This document shows, one piece after another, positions 756-38,188 of a stretch of 38,188 bases of DNA. The stretch is from a virus: IMG/VR virus record IMGVR_UViG_3300010148_000037, positions 1-38,188 of that record; one strand, written 5' to 3'. Position numbers and translations under genes: made by a program. The notes under the pieces are model-generated. The model was not told where the DNA came from. It saw only the letters and a program-made list of their open reading frames with translations, and did not search any database. Every line of letters starts with the position of its first letter. The stretch's first letter is position 1.

Positions 756-3700
756 TTATCTATTACTAAGCTCACTCTTGTCTACATCTGCGTTTGCAGC
801 GTAAAGATTAAACTTATTTTTAGATTGATTACTGTTAGTAGCCAATATAGTCCTCATATAACTACCCTTCATTCTTTCACCTTCTATAGAGCCAGTTTTA
901 GTCATGAATAAAAAGCCTCCATCAAAGCTAGTGTCGTAATCGTAACTCCCAGCGATAAGTATCTTATTTGCACTTTTTTCATTAAAAGTACCAGACTTTA
1001 TCTGGTATGGATACCCTAAAAATACAGTATCTCCATTAAGTTTTTTAATATACAAGCTAAGATTGGCACTCATAACTAAACTATTCCCAGATGTGTTAGT
1101 ACCATTATACGTTATAACATCACCTACAGATGCTTGACCAGGTAAGTAAGATGAATCTGAACTAGTAATTAAAGTATCTTCTCCATCAAGCAAGTTTACT
1201 ATAACATATCTTGCTCCGTTAACCATTTCGCTTAATTTTATAACCTTGTTAAGATTTGAGTTTGATAGATTTGTATTAATAGATAAGTTTTTCTTATCAT
1301 CATCTAAACCTAAAACTACACCAACACCTTGTATATCTGATCCGTCACCAAAATTATTTTTAACTATTTTAGAGTCTACACTAGATTCACAAAATGGAAT
1401 GTCAGCATACTGTATACCCTCCTTAGACTTATAGTCAATAACTAGCATAGTGTTATTTTTTAAACCTACATTTACCTTATCCTTAACAATTATTAAGGTG
1501 TTTGATACTATTCTAGATACTATATGGTACTCTTCAGAAGAAATTCCGATAACTTTAATTAAATCACCTGGAGATACGTCTTCATAAAATTTAGTATTTA
1601 TACCAATTATTTCAAAAGGTGAACCATCTGAATTAATACTACAAGTTCCATTTACCTTTTTAAAGGCAATATTTGTAGTTATAACCTCATCATAACCACC
1701 ATAATATTGTCCCATATTAGAGAATAGACCTGTAATAAATTTTGTATCACTCTCTAGTGATAAAGCATTATAAGTCTTAACAGATGATGGCTCTGCGTTA
1801 AATACAAAGTCAATATAAGACAAGTTGTTGTTACCATAAAACTTATTATAATATTGATTGCTTCTAGAGTATTTATCTGAATCGTTATGTCTATATAACC
1901 TACCTTGTTTAAAAGTAACAAGTTGTCTGTTAACTTTACAATAGTAATCAGGAATATAAGAATAAAAAGATGTCCATCTATTTGACTCTTCACTAAATGC
2001 TACAGTAACAGGATTAAATATAACGACTTTATCGTCAAAAGCATTTTCAGGTTTACTTGTTATATTGTCCCAAGTACTAATACTATCACTCCAAACATAA
2101 CTTTCACTTGTATGACTAGCACTCTTATTACCAATTATTGAATGAAATGTTACTATATACTCATTATACTTAGGATCGTAACCAGCAACAATAGAAGAGC
2201 TAAATTGTAAATCACTTGCATATTCAGACACTGAATGAAACTTATTGTACGCTGGATTATACTTTAAGTACAATTCACCCAAATCTCTAAAGTAGTCCTT
2301 CATACCATATTCAGATATAACTGTAATGCCATCATTAGATAATCTAAGGACAGAACCTCTTTGTATATCTGTAAAGTAAAACACATTACCCTGCTTAACT
2401 ATAGACTCAGGATTTAAACTGCAACCATACTGACCCGAATAAACAATAGAGTAATCACTTATAATATTATTAGATAAAGAAACTAAACCTTCTCCTGAGG
2501 CTGTATTAAGTATATCTTTACCTACTAAAACTCTACCAACTTTACTTTCATGGAATATGATTAAATCGTTATTCTGATTACTTAAATATTGAATAGATCC
2601 AAAATCTTTGTTGTAATCAAAATAAGGAGTGTTTGCTAGATTAAAGTTACTTAAACCATTTATAGCACCTGTACTCACATGAGGCTCAGAGAAAAACACA
2701 GAGGCTTTAAGTCTTCTTTCTTTTGAGTTGTTGTTAACTACATTTATACGACCTTTATCGTAGTGATTAGTTCTATGAAAATCATTTAAGAAATAGTCTT
2801 CACAAGCAAAAGATTCTGTATTTTCTAAAACATCACCAGAAGATGTGCTTGTAAACATTCTCCTAAATTTAACATAAACATCTCCACCATCTAAAGTTAC
2901 TTTAGCAGGTATTAAAGAAACTTCTGTATTTACATCTTTATCATAAAAATAATCAGGAACTTGATTTATTTGACCGCTATGGTATCTATTTCCTTTACCA
3001 GGATTTCCAATTTCTATTTTATCACCAATTTCGTAATAAACTAAGTTTTCCTGCTCTTGATTTAATTTAGGTCTGTATATCTCAGCTATAAGTTTATTGT
3101 AACCACTAGTAGCTAAATTAAATCCTGAGTGAGCTATACTAACAGATTCTCCATCTTCAATAGTTATAGAAGTACTTTCTGGGTCTGCAATTCTCACGTA
3201 AAACCCACTTCCGTTTTCTGTACTTGATATTGGGTTGTCTGAATCGTGAAAATCAAATCCTGTAATTTCAAAATCTAAATACTCTCTAAATAATTTTCTA
3301 TCATCACCAACCTTACAACTAATAAACCTAATTCTGTCTCCTTTAGTGGCATCAAAATCTATAAGAGCACCAGAAGAGTCTATATATCCTAAGTTTTCTG
3401 CTTTTAAAGAGTTTATAGATAAATAAATTTGAGTATCACTACCATCTCCAATAATAGCATCAGCTATAGTAATTTGGACAAATTCTGCAACAGAAGTGTT
3501 ACCAGCATAAAGCATTTGATAATGAGTTGCCCACCTAGGAGGTTTATTATATATATCAAAACTAATGCTAGAAACCTGACCAGGTAAAATATTATCTTCA
3601 GTAACAAAAGGATTATAACATCTAGTACCATTTAAATTAGGAAATACAGATTCTGTTCCAAAACCTTCTTGTAACTCAACTCCAGATCCAAAATCAGGAG

Positions 3701-6700
3701 CCACATTTACAAAAGAACATCTATTTGTCTCGTCAAAATATGCTACACCAAAATCATGAAAAGCACCGTTTTTAAAAGAGTTAGATGAAGCAGATCCACT
3801 AGTAAAAACAACGTCATTTTTAGTTCTAGTTAAAACAAATCCATCAAAAGAATTTTGCCATCCAGTGAAAACTCCTGAGTCTTCATTATTAGAACCATTT
3901 GTTTTACATATCCACTTAACTTTTATCATATTAACACCAGAGACTGTAAGTGTAAGTGATAGTAAACCTGAATCATTTGCTTGATCATAATTAGAAGATG
4001 TTAAACTAGCTCCTCCTTCAAACTGATCCTGATTAAATTGATCTATAATTCTTTCTCTAGCCTGATTTATTGTTGATGCACCTGTTATATCAACACTCAT
4101 TAAAAGTGTACCAGCTCTTTTCATTGGGTTTGCAAATGCTTCTGGCTTTCTTTTTACTCCCCACCCTAAATTTATATCTATAAATTGAGAGCTTGAATCA
4201 TTAAGACTAATACCAGATAAGTCTATAAAGAAACTAACTGTACAAGAGGCACTACTATTAGAATCCCATGATGAGTTTCCAAAAACACCCTGAATAGCAT
4301 CAGCTAAACCACTTGATTCAGCAGCACTGTTAGTATCGTCGTTACCACTTCCAATGGTTAGGGTAGGTACCGAATTAGAAGCACTACTATCAAAAAACAC
4401 ACCTACCTGTGAAGTAGAGGTCTCAACAACAGAGCTATCTTCGTTTAAAAACTCACTCTCAACCACCATAGGTGTGTTATCAAAACCTTCAACTACGTTA
4501 CCATAAGCGATTCTATTGTTAGACAATATTGTTTGTGCTTTAGCAAGTTTAGGAACAGAGTCAAATAATTTATTAGAGTCAGCTTTATCTACAAAAGGAT
4601 AAACACCATTGTTTTTAAATTTAATTATAGACTTAGGTACATCAAAGTGAAAAGCAGGATCTGATATAACATCATTTTTAATTTTCTTCAGATAACTAGT
4701 AAAGTTATTCTGAACAGTATCTACTAAAACAAACTCACCATCGTTTCCTGTTCTAGCTACTATTTCTATTTTTTTAACATCTGATATGGTGTCGAAATAC
4801 TCTACATCAATAACGTTTTTTATATTAGAATAATCGTCAACTTTTATAGGTACGTTTTTTGAAAATACCTTATCTGGTTGTATGTCAGATATTCCACTGT
4901 ATGATGTGTTTTCATTATCGTAATGAGTGTACCTATATTTAAACTGAAATAAATTATCTAGTATATTATTTTTACTAGATGAAGAGTCAATTTTTAGCTC
5001 AGTTTGAGGTCTTAATTCAGGTTGATGTTTAATAGCATCTAAATATTTAACCTTATCATGATAACCACCAAAACTAATCAAAGGTGAGTAAGCATCATCA
5101 GGATCTGCGTGCATTAGAATACCTAAAGCAACACCACTGTTCTCAAAAGGACAGTTGGTTAATATAGCACCTATAGATGTTTCTATATCGTTTACTAGTA
5201 TATTTAAAGGTTTTGCAGCTGGTGCTGTAAAATTAGGTGGTGTCTCAACTGTTATTGTAGTTGCATTTATGTTTGTGACTTTAAAGAATCTAGCGAAATT
5301 ATCATTATCCATAATCCCAATAAACTCTCCTTTAGCTAAAGTGTTGTTACTAAGTATTGACTGACTAGCAGTAATCGTATTACTACCACTGGTAACATTA
5401 AAAGTAAACCCAGTTAGAGGATCATTTGATATTCTTCTAACAATACCAATAACTTCAGACCAACCATTAAATTGAACTTGATTTATGTCTTCAATCTGTG
5501 AAACTGAAGGTTTCTTTTGATAAAACACGTTATCACCAACTTTAAGTGATCTTATTTTTTGATCTTCAAAAGATAAAAATGCTGATTTATCAAAACCACC
5601 AGGAAAGAATACATCCTCAATCTTAATAGCATTATTAATATTTTCTTCGTTCTTTTTACCTAACTCAACATTAATTTTTCTAGGTCTATTAAAATTATCT
5701 GTAAAATATAAAATATCATCAACCTTACTAACACCTGTAATTGAATTAAACTTATCAAAATTAAGAACAGTTTCTACATCACCATTAGATCCTAACCTAC
5801 CATCTTGATATACAGTTTTAATGTTATCTAATATTAAGTCGTACTCTAATATGCAGTCAAAATTGTTTACAGAGGTGTCATGAACAAAGTAATATATTCT
5901 ACTTAAAGGTTTATCTTCATAAGATCCAATACAAACAAAATCTTCACTAGCTAAACTAATAGACTTATTTTTCTCTAATATTGAATTGTAAACATATCTT
6001 CTAACGCCTCTTGTTATGATAGGTTTTTTATCTACAGATTTATTTACTATAATGTCAGAATTAGAAGATGGTACTGTTGATGGTGCATCTAAATTATAAG
6101 CACTATAATTATCAGATGATGCTGCTCTAACAAAGTTTTCTGCAGTTCCTGACTGTTGAGGCTGTGGTATACTACGATTTTGAGAATTTAAATTAGTTGA
6201 CAGTACTGAAATATCTACTTTAGCGTCACTTTCAATTTGATTAGTATTAGAAGCATCACCAACAGTGTTGTCCTTGTAAGAGTGCATACCATCACCTCCG
6301 TTACTATAATCAAGAATGTTTATAGAATTAAGCGAACTAAAGCTTTGACTATTACTAAGAAGCTGTGTATTATAAAGCTCTCCTAAAGCTGTATAAGTAT
6401 CTAAGTAAAGCTCCCATCCATCCCTATTATCTAACACTTTAATCATAAACTGATTATCATTGTTTGCTGAAGCAGCCCACGAAATATCGTTAGTTATACC
6501 ACCTTCAGCAAATGATGCGTAATTAGTATAATCCACTCCAAAACCAAAATCAAAGTCTACTTGTATTTCTATATTTTCGTCTCCAAAAGGAACTTGATAC
6601 CCATAAGACCCAGGGTTTAAAAGATATCCTGTATTGGGATCATGTCTATCTGATACGCCTGCATATCCTTTAAACATAGAGTCAACAGAACTTTCCTCAC

Positions 6701-9700
6701 TATAAGTATATAAATGATAATCTTTTATAATTGTTTTTACAATGTTTTGAAATGGAGCACCATCGTGAGCCTCATCGCTACTCCAAAACCCCTGAGTACC
6801 TTGGAGATTTTTTCTGTACTGTTGACTAATATGTTCAGCTTGAACAACTTTTCCAAAAGTATATTCTTCTCCTGGAAAAACATTTGAATTTTTTAAAACA
6901 AGAGTATAGGCGTAATTATTCATTGCTGCCGCACTACTAGTACTATAGTCTATACCAGTTGGCAAAAAGAACTCATAAAGATTATAACATGCAGTAGCTC
7001 TATTTAAATTTACATCAAATAAAAAACCTTCAGGATTCAGATCATCTGCAGGTAAACTGTAAACTTGACCCAAAAGGTAGGTTTGAAGGTCTGATAAAGC
7101 AATTATATCTTCATTAAGGGTAGCTTGATTATTTTCAAAAGCAAGTGTTACACCATCAATATAACCTTGATCTATAGTGCTTGTTAATGCCAACTCTTGT
7201 ATAGAATTGTTTATAGAAGTTTGAAGCTCATCAGAAATAGCATTAAATCTATTCAATAAATTTGTATAATCTTGTATTTGACTACTAATAACATCAAAAT
7301 CAGAAGATAAATCTGTTATAGAATCTTCTATAGCTTCATTTACAGATTCAGCAGATTCAGCTTGTTCTTGAAATAAATCTTTAAGGTTCGCTACAAAACC
7401 TTGTGTTAGACCTGAAACGCTATCAACATACGATATAGAAATGCTATCTATAGTAATTCCTGCAGTGAAATTATCTGGAGGTACAAAATTAGTGTTAAAA
7501 TCAGTACCCTTAACTTTTATTATATATCTTGCGTTAACTATATCGGGTCCAATATATGGATCAACTACTGAAAGTGTAAAAGTGCCAGTTTGACCTGGAT
7601 TAATTGCTGGTGAGTTTCCTTGATCATTTTTAAATACAGCTGGGTAGTTTGCTCCGTATTGATTATCGTCATCCCCGCTAACAAGATGAAATTCAAGTCC
7701 ACTCGCAGTTCCTGGTAAAATACCCATAAGTTCAAGGTCATTTTGAGGAACGTTAACAACAAGCCTAAGATAATTAACTTTACTTGCAGGTATAGTAACA
7801 TTTGTTACCTCACTAATTTGAGCAATATCAAAATATTGAGAAAAATTTTGATTACTAGGGTCGTCAAATTTAATAGCACCATTGGAATGAGAAAAAAAAG
7901 CTTGTTGATATCCCTCAACAGGAATACCCTGTTGAACAAAAGTACCAGAGTTAAGCAATGGATCTGGAACAATTTCTACAAAACTTAGACCAACTGTAGC
8001 ATTAAAGGTATCTATTGTTTCTTGTAAAGAATTATTAAGTTGTTCAGCTTCAAATAATGCAATTTGTACTGGAAGAAGCTGAAGTTGAGCTACTAGAGCA
8101 TTGTCTTGAGCCACTGCAAGATCAGCTTGAAGTTCCTCAATAAAATTACTAGCCTCAGAAGCAGCATCAAAGCTTGGATCATTAAATACAGATGGATCAA
8201 TTGTTGTCCCAGTAATAATTCCAACTACAGCAGCAGCACCTTCATTATAAGCCTCTGTAATATTATCTGACACTACATCCTCAACATTTGCTAATGCAGA
8301 TGCCTCACCGTTAGCAAAAGCTTGAATTACATCAAGCTCTAATTGATCTATTTCAGCCTGTTGATCAGCAATAGTAGCTGTTTGACTAGCAATAGTAACT
8401 TCATTTTCAGCAGCTTGAATCTGTAGGTCAGCAATGGTAATATTATTCTCAGCAAGTTGTACACCAGCAGCATCGTTATCAGATTCTGCCTCAGCAAGAT
8501 CAGATTGTGCCTGAGCAAGATCAGCTTGTGCATCATCAAGATCACCCTGTGCAACAGATAAAGCATCATCTGCAGCTTGCTTATCAGCTAATGCTTGATC
8601 TAATTCTGCTTGTGCTTGAGCAACAGCATTATCAGCAGCAATTTGAATAGCATCAATATTAGCTTGCGTTATACCATCTTCCTGATTTTCTAAAACTGCA
8701 TCATACAAATCTTTTAGTATATTAAATTCAGATGTTACTTCGGCAAGAGCTTGAGAAAAAGACGCTGCTTGAGCCATAACCGCATCTACATCAGCCTGTG
8801 TAATACCATCTTCTGGAGTTATCGAAGCAGCACCATCTGCATAAGCAGCAGCAACTATAGCTGCGTTATCAGAAGTAATATCTATTGAGAGAGCTCCCTG
8901 TGTAAAAGCAGCGTCAATTTCAGCTTGAGTTGCTAAAGATTGAGCATCATCTAATGCAGTTTGAAGACCATTAATTTGATCTTCATAGTTAGAAGATTGA
9001 ACATTAAGAGTATTAGAAATTAAGGCAGCAAGATTTTCTAAGGTAGCGGTCTCACCTAAGTAATCACTCGCATTAAGAAGTTCAGATCCTACTGCAGCTT
9101 CATACGAAGAAAAATTATCTGAAATATTATCTATTTCATTGTTTAAAATATTGATGTCACTAATTAAATTGTCATTTGCATTTTGAAGACCAGTTAATTG
9201 AGTATTTAACTCTACTATGGTATTATCTTTAACATTAATCTGCTGTTCTAAATCATTTAATTGAATTTTTAAACTTTCGTTTTCTGCTGTCAACTCATCT
9301 ATTGTAGCTTGAAGATCAGCATTAACAAGAGTAGTTGTAGATACGTTAACTAAGTCTGCAGCTATTAAATCAAGTGCATGATGAATACCTTCTATACTTC
9401 CTTCGTAAATATCAATAAGTTCTTCTGGTCTTGGATTTGAAACCTCTACTATAAAGTTTGCTATAATAGATTCTAATTGTCTTTGAGCATCTAAAAGAAC
9501 TTCATTTTCACGTTGAAGTCTGTCTGCAAATGCAACTGCGTTAGCTAACTCAATATTAACTTGAGCTAAGTTTGAATTAGCTACATCCAATTGATTTTGT
9601 AACTTAACTATTTGGGCATTATACGAGCTTGTTATTGAGTTTAGCTGTGCTGTTAAAACTCTTATTCTACTGTTAGCTTCATCTAACTCTAATAACAACT

Positions 9701-11534
9701 CCTGATAATCAACATTAACTGAAGATAAATCAGTTGTACCAATAGATCTATTAATAAGTTTTATTGAAGTACCACTATACCAAGATGGTAAAGTAGTAAC
9801 TGGATTTCCAGCTACTAAATCACTTCTTAACTGAGTTTCACTTGCTGCAAAAGCTAATTTAAACCTTGTTAAGCTTGGTGAAGCTAACCTAATAGTTAGG
9901 CTATCTACTTGCTCGTCTTCTAAAAATAATCTAACGCTTGTTAGGGTAAGGGTATCAGAAGATGTGAAATCTTTATCAAACTGTAAAAATATAACAGAAG
10001 AATTGTTAGGGTCGTTTATAAATATACTATGAGACCCGTCAGCACTTATTGTACCAAAGGTGTCATTACCTACATTAACAGTAAAACTATTACCAGATGG
10101 TAATCCTGATATAGTTAAATCTAACTTAAAGTTTTTACCCTCTATTATATTTGCGTTAAGAACATAAGTATTTATAGCTTTTACATCAACACCACTAAAA
10201 GTTAAAGTACCCTCACTAATACTAAATCCATCTCCCTCTGAAACCTCCTCACTATTGAAATAAAACTCTAACTGAGAATAACTAACACTATCTGGGTTAT
10301 TTCTACCTGCAACAGAGGCTTTACCACCAAGGCTTGTAGTTTTAACAAAGTTAGTTGTAATACTTGATAAATCAGTAGTACTACCATTAGTACCCTCTAT
10401 TATTACCTCTCCAAACTTATCATTAGATATAGCGTCATCAAAAAATTGAGATATACTATCTTGAGATGAACCAAACTGAAACTCACCACCACTGTCAAAT
10501 TTATCAGTTGACTCAGTTAAATTTAAAACTTCTGTTATAATATAATCATCAACAGATAGTCCATCTCCACTAGTTTGATCATAAGAATATATATTAACAC
10601 CACCAGTTGTAACTTCATCTGTATTAGGGTTAGTAACCTCAGGATCACCAGGATAAATTTCTGGTTGTTCTCCCTCAATAACTAAGTCTATTATACCTCC
10701 TCCTAAAACACTAACCGCAGGACCAGGACCAAATGAGGTCCCGTCATCATCTACATTAGTGTCATCGTTAGACTGAGAAAAACCATTAGAACTAGCAATA
10801 AAAATACTGTCTCCAATGTAATAACTTAAAGTAGCAGTATCGTAGAATAAACTACCATAATCCTCATTTAAAACATATAGTAAGTCAGGATAAGATTCAT
10901 TTGTATAAGACCCACTTTCCAAGACCAGGCTAAATTCACCACCAGGTTGAGTAGATGTAAATGTTACTCCAAATATATTTGAACCATCAAATACATCACC
11001 AGGAAGAAAATCTACTGAAGCAGTTATATTTAAACTAAGACCTGTGTTAATATCTACTACACTAAAAGAAGAAAGCGGACCTCCTGGACCAAATTTTTCA
11101 TAAAGTATATTTGAAGTAGAAGTTAATTGAGTATTACCATACCAAGAAGTAAAAGATGTATCTATAAAAACAGGATCACTTGATTCGCTAGTTTCATATC
11201 CTAGTGTAAAACTAGACTGATTGTTTATTGATTCTGTTCCTAAAAAAAATATAGTTTGAGATAAGAGTATAAGTTCAGGCTCAACATTTTCTATACTAAT
11301 ATTTGTACCATTAACACCTATACCTGATTCTACATTTACATACTGATTACTTTCAGTAATAAAATTATAAGGTACTAGCGTGTTACCTTCTATATTTTCA
11401 ACAGATCCTGCTGTAGAATCTGATGATGATACAGTTCTTATATTTAAAGCATCTCTGTAATCACCCTGTTTGATCAAGCGAGGATCAGAATCTTTATCCA
11501 TCCCACCTGTAAAAACTTTCTTATCTTGTGCCAT
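756..11534 (-). CDS. Giant (3592 aa) phage tail/stabilization-type protein with large internal insertion
   Basis: The N-terminus (GGMDKDSDPRLIKQGDYRDALNIR, here split as GGMDKDSDPRL + IKQGDYRDALNIR) is the hallmark of a large phage structural family often labelled tail or phage stabilization protein. In that family the opening normally runs directly into a core with a GSYED...IYYFVHD segment and a YFTDNFNRPRKINVE segment. Here that core only resumes near residue 1865. In between lie beta-rich Ser/Thr/Asp segments (about 60-600), a long coiled coil (about 605-1180) with repeats such as EDGITQADVDA and EDGITQANIDA, a beta-sandwich-like module (about 1180-1370) and a second helical region (about 1380-1500). 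The C-terminal third resembles the usual hub, ending LSNR. It follows the gp4-like connector gene by 6 bp, which fits a tail hub or muzzle role. Family assignment is from remembered motifs; the role of the insertion is inferred. Confidence 0.75.
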   Translation of the reverse strand: MAQDKKVFTGGMDKDSDPRLIKQGDYRDALNIRTVSSSDSTAGSVENIEGNTLVPYNFITESNQYVNVESGIGVNGTNISIENVEPELILLSQTIFFLGTESINNQSSFTLGYETSESSDPVFIDTSFTSWYGNTQLTSTSNILYEKFGPGGPLSSFSVVDINTGLSLNITASVDFLPGDVFDGSNIFGVTFTSTQPGGEFSLVLESGSYTNESYPDLLYVLNEDYGSLFYDTATLSYYIGDSIFIASSNGFSQSNDDTNVDDDGTSFGPGPAVSVLGGGIIDLVIEGEQPEIYPGDPEVTNPNTDEVTTGGVNIYSYDQTSGDGLSVDDYIITEVLNLTESTDKFDSGGEFQFGSSQDSISQFFDDAISNDKFGEVIIEGTNGSTTDLSSITTNFVKTTSLGGKASVAGRNNPDSVSYSQLEFYFNSEEVSEGDGFSISEGTLTFSGVDVKAINTYVLNANIIEGKNFKLDLTISGLPSGNSFTVNVGNDTFGTISADGSHSIFINDPNNSSVIFLQFDKDFTSSDTLTLTSVRLFLEDEQVDSLTIRLASPSLTRFKLAFAASETQLRSDLVAGNPVTTLPSWYSGTSIKLINRSIGTTDLSSVNVDYQELLLELDEANSRIRVLTAQLNSITSSYNAQIVKLQNQLDVANSNLAQVNIELANAVAFADRLQRENEVLLDAQRQLESIIANFIVEVSNPRPEELIDIYEGSIEGIHHALDLIAADLVNVSTTTLVNADLQATIDELTAENESLKIQLNDLEQQINVKDNTIVELNTQLTGLQNANDNLISDINILNNEIDNISDNFSSYEAAVGSELLNASDYLGETATLENLAALISNTLNVQSSNYEDQINGLQTALDDAQSLATQAEIDAAFTQGALSIDITSDNAAIVAAAYADGAASITPEDGITQADVDAVMAQAASFSQALAEVTSEFNILKDLYDAVLENQEDGITQANIDAIQIAADNAVAQAQAELDQALADKQAADDALSVAQGDLDDAQADLAQAQSDLAEAESDNDAAGVQLAENNITIADLQIQAAENEVTIASQTATIADQQAEIDQLELDVIQAFANGEASALANVEDVVSDNITEAYNEGAAAVVGIITGTTIDPSVFNDPSFDAASEASNFIEELQADLAVAQDNALVAQLQLLPVQIALFEAEQLNNSLQETIDTFNATVGLSFVEIVPDPLLNSGTFVQQGIPVEGYQQAFFSHSNGAIKFDDPSNQNFSQYFDIAQISEVTNVTIPASKVNYLRLVVNVPQNDLELMGILPGTASGLEFHLVSGDDDNQYGANYPAVFKNDQGNSPAINPGQTGTFTLSVVDPYIGPDIVNARYIIKVKGTDFNTNFVPPDNFTAGITIDSISISYVDSVSGLTQGFVANLKDLFQEQAESAESVNEAIEDSITDLSSDFDVISSQIQDYTNLLNRFNAISDELQTSINNSIQELALTSTIDQGYIDGVTLAFENNQATLNEDIIALSDLQTYLLGQVYSLPADDLNPEGFLFDVNLNRATACYNLYEFFLPTGIDYSTSSAAAMNNYAYTLVLKNSNVFPGEEYTFGKVVQAEHISQQYRKNLQGTQGFWSSDEAHDGAPFQNIVKTIIKDYHLYTYSEESSVDSMFKGYAGVSDRHDPNTGYLLNPGSYGYQVPFGDENIEIQVDFDFGFGVDYTNYASFAEGGITNDISWAASANNDNQFMIKVLDNRDGWELYLDTYTALGELYNTQLLSNSQSFSSLNSINILDYSNGGDGMHSYKDNTVGDASNTNQIESDAKVDISVLSTNLNSQNRSIPQPQQSGTAENFVRAASSDNYSAYNLDAPSTVPSSNSDIIVNKSVDKKPIITRGVRRYVYNSILEKNKSISLASEDFVCIGSYEDKPLSRIYYFVHDTSVNNFDCILEYDLILDNIKTVYQDGRLGSNGDVETVLNFDKFNSITGVSKVDDILYFTDNFNRPRKINVELGKKNEENINNAIKIEDVFFPGGFDKSAFLSFEDQKIRSLKVGDNVFYQKKPSVSQIEDINQVQFNGWSEVIGIVRRISNDPLTGFTFNVTSGSNTITASQSILSNNTLAKGEFIGIMDNDNFARFFKVTNINATTITVETPPNFTAPAAKPLNILVNDIETSIGAILTNCPFENSGVALGILMHADPDDAYSPLISFGGYHDKVKYLDAIKHQPELRPQTELKIDSSSSKNNILDNLFQFKYRYTHYDNENTSYSGISDIQPDKVFSKNVPIKVDDYSNIKNVIDVEYFDTISDVKKIEIVARTGNDGEFVLVDTVQNNFTSYLKKIKNDVISDPAFHFDVPKSIIKFKNNGVYPFVDKADSNKLFDSVPKLAKAQTILSNNRIAYGNVVEGFDNTPMVVESEFLNEDSSVVETSTSQVGVFFDSSASNSVPTLTIGSGNDDTNSAAESSGLADAIQGVFGNSSWDSNSSASCTVSFFIDLSGISLNDSSSQFIDINLGWGVKRKPEAFANPMKRAGTLLMSVDITGASTINQARERIIDQFNQDQFEGGASLTSSNYDQANDSGLLSLTLTVSGVNMIKVKWICKTNGSNNEDSGVFTGWQNSFDGFVLTRTKNDVVFTSGSASSNSFKNGAFHDFGVAYFDETNRCSFVNVAPDFGSGVELQEGFGTESVFPNLNGTRCYNPFVTEDNILPGQVSSISFDIYNKPPRWATHYQMLYAGNTSVAEFVQITIADAIIGDGSDTQIYLSINSLKAENLGYIDSSGALIDFDATKGDRIRFISCKVGDDRKLFREYLDFEITGFDFHDSDNPISSTENGSGFYVRIADPESTSITIEDGESVSIAHSGFNLATSGYNKLIAEIYRPKLNQEQENLVYYEIGDKIEIGNPGKGNRYHSGQINQVPDYFYDKDVNTEVSLIPAKVTLDGGDVYVKFRRMFTSTSSGDVLENTESFACEDYFLNDFHRTNHYDKGRINVVNNNSKERRLKASVFFSEPHVSTGAINGLSNFNLANTPYFDYNKDFGSIQYLSNQNNDLIIFHESKVGRVLVGKDILNTASGEGLVSLSNNIISDYSIVYSGQYGCSLNPESIVKQGNVFYFTDIQRGSVLRLSNDGITVISEYGMKDYFRDLGELYLKYNPAYNKFHSVSEYASDLQFSSSIVAGYDPKYNEYIVTFHSIIGNKSASHTSESYVWSDSISTWDNITSKPENAFDDKVVIFNPVTVAFSEESNRWTSFYSYIPDYYCKVNRQLVTFKQGRLYRHNDSDKYSRSNQYYNKFYGNNNLSYIDFVFNAEPSSVKTYNALSLESDTKFITGLFSNMGQYYGGYDEVITTNIAFKKVNGTCSINSDGSPFEIIGINTKFYEDVSPGDLIKVIGISSEEYHIVSRIVSNTLIIVKDKVNVGLKNNTMLVIDYKSKEGIQYADIPFCESSVDSKIVKNNFGDGSDIQGVGVVLGLDDDKKNLSINTNLSNSNLNKVIKLSEMVNGARYVIVNLLDGEDTLITSSDSSYLPGQASVGDVITYNGTNTSGNSLVMSANLSLYIKKLNGDTVFLGYPYQIKSGTFNEKSANKILIAGSYDYDTSFDGGFLFMTKTGSIEGERMKGSYMRTILATNSNQSKNKFNLYAANADVDKSELSNR

Positions 11535-37028: not shown

Positions 37029-37062
37029 TGACAATCATTAGTATTAATATGTAAAAAAACTT

Positions 37063-37070
37063 TACATTTG
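37063..37070 (+). promoter_or_regulatory. Candidate -7 box TACATTTG for early operon
   Basis: It matches TAnnTTTG exactly and is 64 bp upstream of the ATG at 37135. No TTG is seen at the usual -33 distance. Confidence 0.4.
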
Positions 37071-37103: not shown

Positions 37104-37117
37104 CAACATCAATCATT

Positions 37118-37137
37118 AATTAAAACTATTTATTATG
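37118..37137 (+). repeat. 20-nt start-site leader, copy 1
   Basis: AATTAAAACTATTTATTATG, ending in the ATG of the 113-aa gene, is repeated exactly at 37537-37556. It contains no Shine-Dalgarno sequence. The A/T-rich sequence with AAACTAT probably serves as the translation-initiation region, as A-rich leaders do in Bacteroidota. Confidence 0.8.
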
Positions 37138-37476
37138 GAAACATTACAAGATTACCTAAACGAATTAGACACATTTAAAATAGTAAGTGTGAATAGAGAT
37201 GCAACAGAAGTACACTTTAGCAATGGGCTTAAAGCTACATATAGAGTAGAAACAATGCAGCACTCATATAGCTTAATGGTATTTCAAGCAGTATTACAGA
37301 TAAGATTAATAGAAAGTGGCGGCAATTATGTGCCTATTTTTTGGGGTAGCTCATCAGAAGAACACAATAGACAAATTGTTGAATGGTTTAAAATGGCTTC
37401 TCTAAGATCAAGTGCAGTTATCAGAAGTCAAAAGAACAGTGAGTATAACAGATTAACAAAGCAGTTTAAAGCATAA
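37135..37476 (+). CDS. First early-operon protein, unknown function
   Basis: The 113-aa product (METLQDYLNELDTFKIVSVN, RDATEVHFSNGLKATYRVET, then a helical C-terminal half with EEHNRQIVEWFKMASLRSSA) is a small alpha/beta protein without a recognised motif. It is preceded by promoter boxes and the 20-nt leader. It ends with TAA at 37474-37476, and the hammerhead core begins at the next base. The 3' end of the coding sequence (37463-37469) can also pair with the leader of the next gene to form an outer stem I. So ribosomes reaching the stop codon would disturb the ribozyme. Confidence 0.65.
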   Translation: METLQDYLNELDTFKIVSVNRDATEVHFSNGLKATYRVETMQHSYSLMVFQAVLQIRLIESGGNYVPIFWGSSSEEHNRQIVEWFKMASLRSSAVIRSQKNSEYNRLTKQFKA

Positions 37477-37532
37477 GGTTAACTGATGAGACTTTAGTAG
37501 TCGAAACCTTGTCTTAGGGCAAGGTCTTAACC
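37477..37532 (+). ncRNA. Type I hammerhead ribozyme
   Basis: Every core element is present in order. Stem I 5' GGTTAA (37477-37482); CTGATGA (37483-37489); stem II GACT/AGTC (37490-37493, 37499-37502) with loop TTAGT; GAAA (37503-37506); stem III CCTTG/CAAGG (37507-37511, 37520-37524) with 8-nt loop TCTTAGGG; TC (37525-37526); stem I 3' TTAACC (37527-37532). U37525 pairs with A37506 and the cleavage triplet is the favoured GUC, so cutting is predicted after C37526. Ends lie in stem I, hence type I. Beyond an internal loop (AGCATAA / AAAGAA), AGTTTAA (37463-37469) can pair with TTAAAACT (37539-37546) with one bulge; a stem I internal loop is where type I ribozymes dock with loop II. Self-cleavage itself is not shown by sequence. 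Confidence 0.88.
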
Positions 37533-37536
37533 AAAG

Positions 37537-37556
37537 AATTAAAACTATTTATTATG
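37537..37556 (+). repeat. 20-nt start-site leader, copy 2
   Basis: It is identical to the sequence at 37118-37137 and ends in the ATG of the 41-aa gene. It begins 4 nt after the hammerhead core, and part of it (TTAAAACT) can form the outer part of ribozyme stem I. Confidence 0.8.
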
Positions 37557-37679
37557 TTAGAAACTTATATCAGAAATGTCAGAGTGTTTTACAAAAATAA
37601 TTACTCTTATTATACTATGTTAAAGTACACTATTCGATTTATTCTTTGTAATATTTTCGGTAAAAAGTACACAAAATAA
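37554..37679 (+). CDS. Very small early protein (41 aa)
   Basis: The product (MLETYIRNVRVFYKNNYSYY, TMLKYTIRFILCNIFGKKYT K) is basic and aromatic-rich with a hydrophobic segment (YTIRFILCNIF). It begins at the second copy of the 20-nt leader, which strongly supports translation. After ribozyme cleavage its mRNA would start with a 5'-hydroxyl about 27 nt before the ATG. No family recognised. Confidence 0.55.
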   Translation: MLETYIRNVRVFYKNNYSYYTMLKYTIRFILCNIFGKKYTK

Positions 37680-37707
37680 TTATCAATCAATTAAACAATT
37701 AGAAACT

Positions 37708-37869
37708 ATGAACAAGAAAGAAATCGTAACAATGAAGTTCAATACTGAAGAAATGAACTTACTATCTGAAGCAGTAGAATTACTATACAATAGAACTATT
37801 GGAGAGATGATGTATAAGACTGAAAATGACTTAAGAGAATTATTAAATAAGATAAACCAAAATAAATAA
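37708..37869 (+). CDS. Very small early protein (53 aa)
   Basis: The product (MNKKEIVTMKFNTEEMNLLS, EAVELLYNRTIGEMMYKTEN, DLRELLNKINQNK) starts with a beta strand followed by helices, possibly a ribbon-helix-helix-like shape, though this is not proven. The leader TTAGAAACTATG is like those of its neighbours. It ends 5 bp before the next start. Function unknown. Confidence 0.6.
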   Translation: MNKKEIVTMKFNTEEMNLLSEAVELLYNRTIGEMMYKTENDLRELLNKINQNK

Positions 37870-37874
37870 AAACT

Positions 37875-38081
37875 ATGACAACAAAATTTGAAAAGTACAG
37901 ACAGAACTTAACACAAGTAGGCAACAATATTTATAGCTATGATGTAATAGTTGCTTACATCAATGGTAATGACTTAATACAAAATAAGAATCCATTCAAA
38001 GCAAATGGTCGTTGGTCAGTTACCACACAAAAGCACATAAACTATGTAGCGAAATATTATAACCTTAACCTTAAAAAATAG
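37875..38081 (+). CDS. Small early protein (68 aa)
   Basis: The product (MTTKFEKYRQNLTQVGNNIY, SYDVIVAYINGNDLIQNKNP, TTQKHINYVAKYYNLNLKK) has a pattern I associate with small phage proteins of unknown function: VAYxNGNDLI followed by WSxTTQKHINYVAKxLNLxL. It starts 5 bp after the previous stop with the leader AATAAAAACTATG and ends in TAG, 5 bp before the next ATG. Confidence 0.65.
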   Translation: MTTKFEKYRQNLTQVGNNIYSYDVIVAYINGNDLIQNKNPFKANGRWSVTTQKHINYVAKYYNLNLKK

Positions 38082-38086
38082 AAACT

Positions 38087-38188
38087 ATGAGCAGTTACAC
38101 AACAATAGGCTACCTGCAATCTAAGATGATCCGTATGCCTTTAAACCTAAACACGAATTGGAATAACGACATCAATTCACTATCATCT
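38087..38188 (+). CDS. Early gene, cut by the window edge
   Basis: The frame opens at ATG 38087 with the leader ATAGAAACTATG and stays open for 34 codons (MSSYTTIGYLQSKMIRMPLN, LNTNWNNDINSLSS) to the last base. It continues the early operon. The visible part shows no recognisable motif. Confidence 0.55.
   Translation, partial: MSSYTTIGYLQSKMIRMPLNLNTNWNNDINSLSS

Follow-up and report, generated by a model that had tools for sequence, protein, structure and literature searches.

A compact type I hammerhead ribozyme between two small phage genes, and the group of viral and cellular hammerheads to which it belongs

The ribozyme and its gene neighbourhood

The window, by which we mean the whole stretch of 38,188 nucleotides that was analysed (positions 1 to 38,188 of IMG/VR record IMGVR_UViG_3300010148_000037), derives from a phage of marine bacteria. 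Exactly between two of its small genes lies a sequence, at 37476-37533, that is almost certainly a type I hammerhead ribozyme, with cleavage predicted from the sequence. The features of the locus are as follows.

37107-37694, plus strand: cassette of about 575 bp with the 113-aa gene, the hammerhead and the 41-aa frame; missing in the nearest relative, L315
37135-37476, plus strand: upstream gene, 113 aa, no assigned function (open reading frame; TAA stop at 37474-37476)
37476, plus strand: conserved A adjoining stem I on its 5' side, with which the stop codon ends (258 of 260 canonical relatives have A here)
37477-37482, plus strand: stem I 5' strand, GGUUAA (GGTTAA in DNA), 6 bp (fold, alignment)
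37483-37489, plus strand: catalytic core CUGAUGA (sequence, alignment)
37490-37502, plus strand: stem-loop II, GACU-UUAGU-AGUC, 4 bp, 37490-37493 with 37499-37502 (fold, alignment)
37503-37505, plus strand: catalytic core GAA (sequence, alignment)
37506-37525, plus strand: stem-loop III, ACCUUGUC-UUAG-GGCAAGGU, 8 bp, including the A15.1-U16.1 pair (fold; identical hairpin in L316 and L310)
37526-37527, plus strand: predicted cleavage site, C37526 / U37527 (position from the hammerhead consensus)
37527-37532, plus strand: stem I 3' strand, UUAACC (TTAACC in DNA; fold, alignment)
37533, plus strand: conserved A 3' of stem I (A in 248 of 260 relatives)
37533-37553, plus strand: leader of the next gene, A+T-rich (AUG 27 nt after the cut)
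37554-37679, plus strand: downstream 41-aa reading frame, its leader AATTAAAACTATTTATTATG identical to that of the 113-aa gene

The core is perfect (CTGATGA at 37483-37489, GAA at 37503-37505, A15.1 at 37506, U16.1 at 37525 and C17 at 37526), and the match to the hammerhead consensus (CUGANGA ... GAA, A15.1-U16.1, H17) that had been claimed from the sequence alone is therefore confirmed at 37483-37489, 37503-37506 and 37525-37526. Three helices surround this core and are kept by compensatory changes; the minimum-energy structure (RNAfold) is the hammerhead fold itself, at -18.5 kcal/mol (z -2.8), in which stem I is open and loops close stems II and III, as in type I. The sequence-only reading had given the stems 6, 4 and 5 bp, which is right for stems I and II, while stem III really has 8. 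It had also extended stem I outwards, with an internal loop, to 37463-37546 and made the leader of the next gene part of this outer stem. Neither idea is supported: in a comparison of 258 related ribozymes, the longest outer helices average 5.07 bp, no more than the 5.09 bp obtained with downstream flanks swapped between sites, and the ribozyme proper spans 37476-37533. Loop II, UUAGU, agrees with the pattern UNARU found throughout the group described below; together with the conserved A on either side of stem I it suggests a compact contact, and these elements probably stand in for the internal loop that stem I usually has.

As first proposed, the ribozyme directly follows the stop codon of the 113-aa gene, which ends one base before stem I (37476 and 37477, respectively). 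The 113-aa protein has no match in Pfam or PHROGs and a pattern search of viral contigs yielded no relatives; one distant homologue, with 38% identity, is encoded in L317. For the 27-nt leader that a cut would leave, no stable fold is predicted. This placement had been thought unusual, yet 219 of 258 relatives likewise sit between a stop codon and an ATG. The stop codon ends at a median of 1 nt past the start of stem I, often within stem I or the UGA of the core, and the distance from cut to ATG has a median of 23 nt (quartiles 21-27 nt), although such short distances could reflect compact packing alone. Of the 258 ribozymes, 5 are spanned by a same-strand reading frame; for random positions the figure is 51%. 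A record with a match has between one and seven ribozymes, mostly clustered, and the 5.8-kb contig L397 has nine within 4 kb, between units of one to three genes.

That the genes are early may be inferred from their position beside a divergent, promoter-like region. A scan for consensus sigma-70 promoters found no more sites than in shuffled sequence. A near-palindrome, TGTAAAAAAACTTTACA (37050-37066; kept in L315 at 4376-4392), precedes the first plus-strand gene and is a possible operator. Almost every plus-strand gene of the operon is preceded by AAACTATG or AAACTATTTATTATG (37121-38087), and this recurring leader may also be a recombination site for gene exchange. Elsewhere in the window, beside virion genes, a very large reading frame of 3592 aa occupies 756-11534 on the minus strand.

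Detection by covariance models and chance expectation

The window ribozyme scores below all curated Rfam thresholds. Its top match is RAGATH-1-hammerhead (RF03152), at 32.2 bits against a cut-off of 56.3 (E 0.11 over the window, 0.0007 over a 241-base stretch). RAGATH-1 resembles the window ribozyme in the core, the GACU start of stem II, stem III and the cleavage triplet, but has an extra 5' hairpin of which two of the four pairs do not form in the window; with those pairs broken and the score under the cut-off, we do not count it as a member. Hammerhead_1 (RF00163) and Hammerhead_3 (RF00008), whose core chemistry equals that of the window ribozyme, gave no match in the window even at E 10, and a search of the window's own record with RF00163 was as empty as that of control genomes. 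However, none of 14 related loci with good hammerheads passed the Rfam thresholds, so that the miss in the window reflects the models. Our own covariance model, R2, built from 35 sequences with the window, L316 and L310 left out, recovers the window ribozyme at 69.1 bits (E 7.6e-15). The covariance-model check suggested by the sequence-only reading thus failed at the Rfam thresholds and succeeded with a model made without the window. Rfam thresholds have a blind spot for these hammerheads.

A descriptor requiring the core and stems of at least 6, 4 and 5 bp matched once in the window, and twice by chance when 10,839 random windows with its dinucleotide composition were scanned, whereas the bare core with gaps is common (5 matches, 2.7 expected).

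A large group of compact hammerheads in viral genomes

A pattern with core and stem II fixed matched at least 120 viral stretches, most of which fold as hammerheads in which changes in stems I and III are compensated. Among the matches listed, 81 of 102 distinct sites have a stem I of at least 5 bp and a stem III of at least 4 bp, as opposed to 15 of 2040 (0.7%) after shuffling of the flanks and 5% after exchange of the downstream flank between sites, the latter value being due in part to sites with a common stem I. When stem I was fixed by the pattern instead, both free pairs of stem II were complementary in 113 of 115 cases, in many different combinations. In each of these two tests the helices assessed were ones on which the pattern had not selected. 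In an alignment of 48 sequences, standard pairs fill 99.9% of pair cells, 12 of the 15 pairs have changed on both sides, affecting all three helices, and the covariation score is 0.778 (0.145 when shuffled). The sequence-only reading had held that homologues with uncompensated stem changes would speak against a ribozyme; in L316 and L310, where stems I and III are as in the window, stem II reads GGAT/ATCC instead of GACT/AGTC, that is, two compensated pairs. The compensated stems, the alignment and model R2 together strongly support its central claim, namely that two phage genes are separated by a type I hammerhead.

The group consensus is A-G-N4-A CUGANGA G-NNU-UNARU-ANN-C GAA A...U C U-N4-C-A, its features being an open 6-bp stem I between A and A and loop II UNARU. 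Some members score below threshold with Hammerhead_1 (RF00163) and Hammerhead_3 (RF00008). This is a large group of compact hammerheads, previously uncurated and missed by the Rfam cut-offs.

Precedents exist in the type I hammerheads that occur in clusters in prophages and phages. Cutting between cistrons was proposed as a principle for prophages in 2011 (Perreault et al. 2011, PMC3088659), and tandem prophage hammerheads are described there as self-cleaving in vitro and in E. coli; by position alone, the window ribozyme likewise lies between genes of one transcript, where cutting would give gene- or operon-length mRNAs. The principle is therefore known and the window ribozyme adds one more case. 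That paper stresses pseudoknots, loop-loop contacts and integrase or prophage neighbourhoods, in contrast to the open 6-bp stem I with A...A, the UNARU loop II and the fixed stop-ribozyme-ATG spacing of the present group, most of whose carriers resemble tailed phages of Bacteroidota, although the two memberships may overlap. HDV-like theta ribozymes of gut phages (PMC10879173) are also self-cleaving RNAs that process phage transcripts, but they have a different fold and adjoin tRNA genes. In the open-licence literature we found no report linking hammerheads to crAss, Bacteroidetes phages or TonB. Measured against the open literature that was searched, four aspects are new: how large the group is, how fixed its architecture is, the stem I common to one genome, and the cellular operon in which a hammerhead is conserved (see below).

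A second type of phage hammerhead, with a 7-bp stem II, loop II GGGG and ACCC directly 3' of stem I, occurs in L006, L007, L020, L030, L081 and others; its sequence suggests a pseudoknot of loop II. Separately, in L396 (Mucilaginibacter pedocola) a hammerhead of the present group precedes, by about 170 bases, a match to the twister-P1 ribozyme that is below threshold (sites 7472-7527 and 7698-7752; twister-P1 at 37.4 bits, E 8e-5).

Carrier phages

In L315 and L316, two records some 60 kb long, the large terminase shares 93-96% identity with that of the window phage, and in the Flavobacterium elemo phages 37%; there is no near-identical phage in GenBank. Since 26 of 31 long records (30 with the ribozyme, plus L315) encode a relative of this terminase, most of the group belongs to a single broad set of flavobacterial phages, though there are outliers. 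Most carriers resemble tailed phages of Bacteroidota and were not found as prophages. The strict pattern had no match in 257 Gb of genome sequence from bacteria and archaea. A looser pattern found 11 stretches in bacterial genomes, several of them apparently phage contigs that had been binned with a genome, and pointed to the chromosomal cases described below.

The window phage has the ribozyme and so do some of its close relatives, but the nearest, L315, lacks it; furthermore, none of 80 loci collected by the neighbouring minus-strand 97-aa protein has a hammerhead. It is thus not essential.

The cultured carriers are the Flavobacterium elemo phages, which grow on strain BAL314. Isolates from this one host show three states of stem II, namely GACU/AGUC, GGUU/AACC (paired) and GACU/AACC, whose two mismatches are found in three isolates (elemoD, E and F); in elemoA 7-9A stem II is paired. 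Nature has thus supplied a test set in which stem II is either paired or mispaired. The positions are:

L450-L455, about 411-473, and L001, 3995-4057: elemo ribozyme; stem II versions differ between close isolates

In most elemo records the deposited annotation draws a small reverse-strand gene across the ribozyme.

A chromosomal hammerhead in marine Flavobacteriales

With the covariance model, a single chromosomal hammerhead was found in 18 of the 52 genomes that belong to the same bacterial family as L398, and in 23 of 396 genomes sampled from its order:

L406-L428; for example L398, 5186-5246, and L403, 6185-6241 (minus strand): chromosomal hammerheads in metagenome-assembled genomes of marine Flavobacteriales

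Wherever the flanks of the retrieved cases could be read, it follows a gene for a TonB-dependent receptor (Pfam PF00593 in L398) and lies 12-27 nt before a gene for a Cys/His-rich lipoprotein; its helices covary. Of the 21 family genomes in which the lipoprotein gene was detectable, 17 have a model match, three a hammerhead recognised by eye, and in one the site is cut by the contig end. Measured against the open literature searched, this operon of TonB receptor, hammerhead and lipoprotein is new. That the architecture also occurs outside phages speaks for mRNA processing between cistrons as its function.

Stem I tends to be shared within a genome

Among 65 ribozymes from 24 non-redundant contigs, chosen without regard to stem I, the identity between stem I sequences of one contig was 0.847, versus 0.558 with permuted labels (reached in 0 of 2000 permutations). 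Stem III showed some excess (0.462 versus 0.290) and stem II none (0.484 versus 0.472). Contigs with a common stem I and differing stem II include L024, L042, L097, L112 and L397. Stem I is the sole helix present in both cleavage products. Its sharing could possibly give processed mRNAs a common 5' hexamer, allow cleavage products to re-pair in trans, or reflect descent by duplication with stem II changing faster.

Function and alternative explanations

We consider it likely, judging from the sequence, that the ribozyme marks the point between two genes at which the transcript of a phage operon is cut, splitting it into gene-sized mRNAs. From the fold, the compensated changes and the fixed stop-to-start place, all of which can be seen in the sequence, we infer cleavage in the cell, the chemistry of the ends and an effect on expression, along the following lines. 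Once the upstream stop codon lies behind and the 57 nt carry no ribosome, the RNA would fold and cut itself in cis between C37526 and U37527. The upstream mRNA would then end in the hairpins of stems II and III and a 2',3'-cyclic phosphate, while the downstream mRNA would begin with 5'-OH-UUAACCA, followed by the unstructured 27-nt leader to the AUG, and the gene-sized pieces of the polycistronic transcript might differ in stability and translation. Because stop codons abut or lie within the ribozymes, competition between translation and ribozyme folding is plausible.

An alternative, which we regard as a serious though somewhat doubtful possibility, is that the ribozyme does cut but is used mainly to provide the upstream mRNA with a protected 3' end, as a substitute for a terminator or processing hairpin, any downstream effect being secondary. 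No terminator-like site was found near the window ribozyme, and two orthologous gene ends have a hammerhead in some phages and a plain G+C hairpin in others: the 68-aa gene (MNKKRLTKKHY...) is followed by a hammerhead in L310 and L274 and by GGGGGGCTTGCCCCCC in L315, the 113-aa gene by the hammerhead in the window and by GGGGGGAGAAATCCCCCC in L317. Nevertheless, the enrichment of hairpins at orthologous gene ends without a hammerhead is modest (34 of 172, or 20%, against a background of 12%), and the cut-to-ATG distance is also tight, suggesting that the downstream end matters too. With two cases and a weak overall enrichment, a general replacement of hammerheads by G+C hairpins was rejected.

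One may also consider a selfish or modular RNA that moves with gene cassettes and is tolerated at gene ends with little effect on the phage. The distribution is indeed patchy, an identical stem III hairpin follows three different genes (in the window, L316 and L310), and the cassette missing in L315 has the short repeat ATCAATCA at both junctions (37107-37119 and 37682-37694; also in L315 at 4434-4446). Yet strong compensatory conservation, stop-to-start placement and near absence from coding sequence indicate selection, as does single-copy conservation in a cellular operon, and no transposase or reverse transcriptase was noticed adjoining the ribozyme, which makes this explanation unlikely. 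Finally, a chance hammerhead-like fold or a decayed, inactive ribozyme, to which the missed Rfam gathering thresholds could point, is scarcely credible given the perfect core, the rarity of chance matches in random windows, the E-value of the independent model and the 14 of 14 related loci that miss the same thresholds.

The role of hammerheads in prokaryotes and their phages is an open question (PMC6155905). Beyond the cut mark in this one operon, we tentatively propose, as something that may quite possibly hold, that dedicated hammerhead mRNA cutting extends throughout marine and freshwater Bacteroidota phages and to one vertically inherited operon of the host lineage (TonB receptor, hammerhead, lipoprotein), and that each phage genome would keep one common stem I, giving equal 5' hexamers or permitting re-pairing and rejoining in trans, while stem II drifts. 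The function of these ribozymes is directly testable, since they offer one uniform architecture with natural variants in the hundreds, phages in culture and, in cellular genomes, a case with a single copy.
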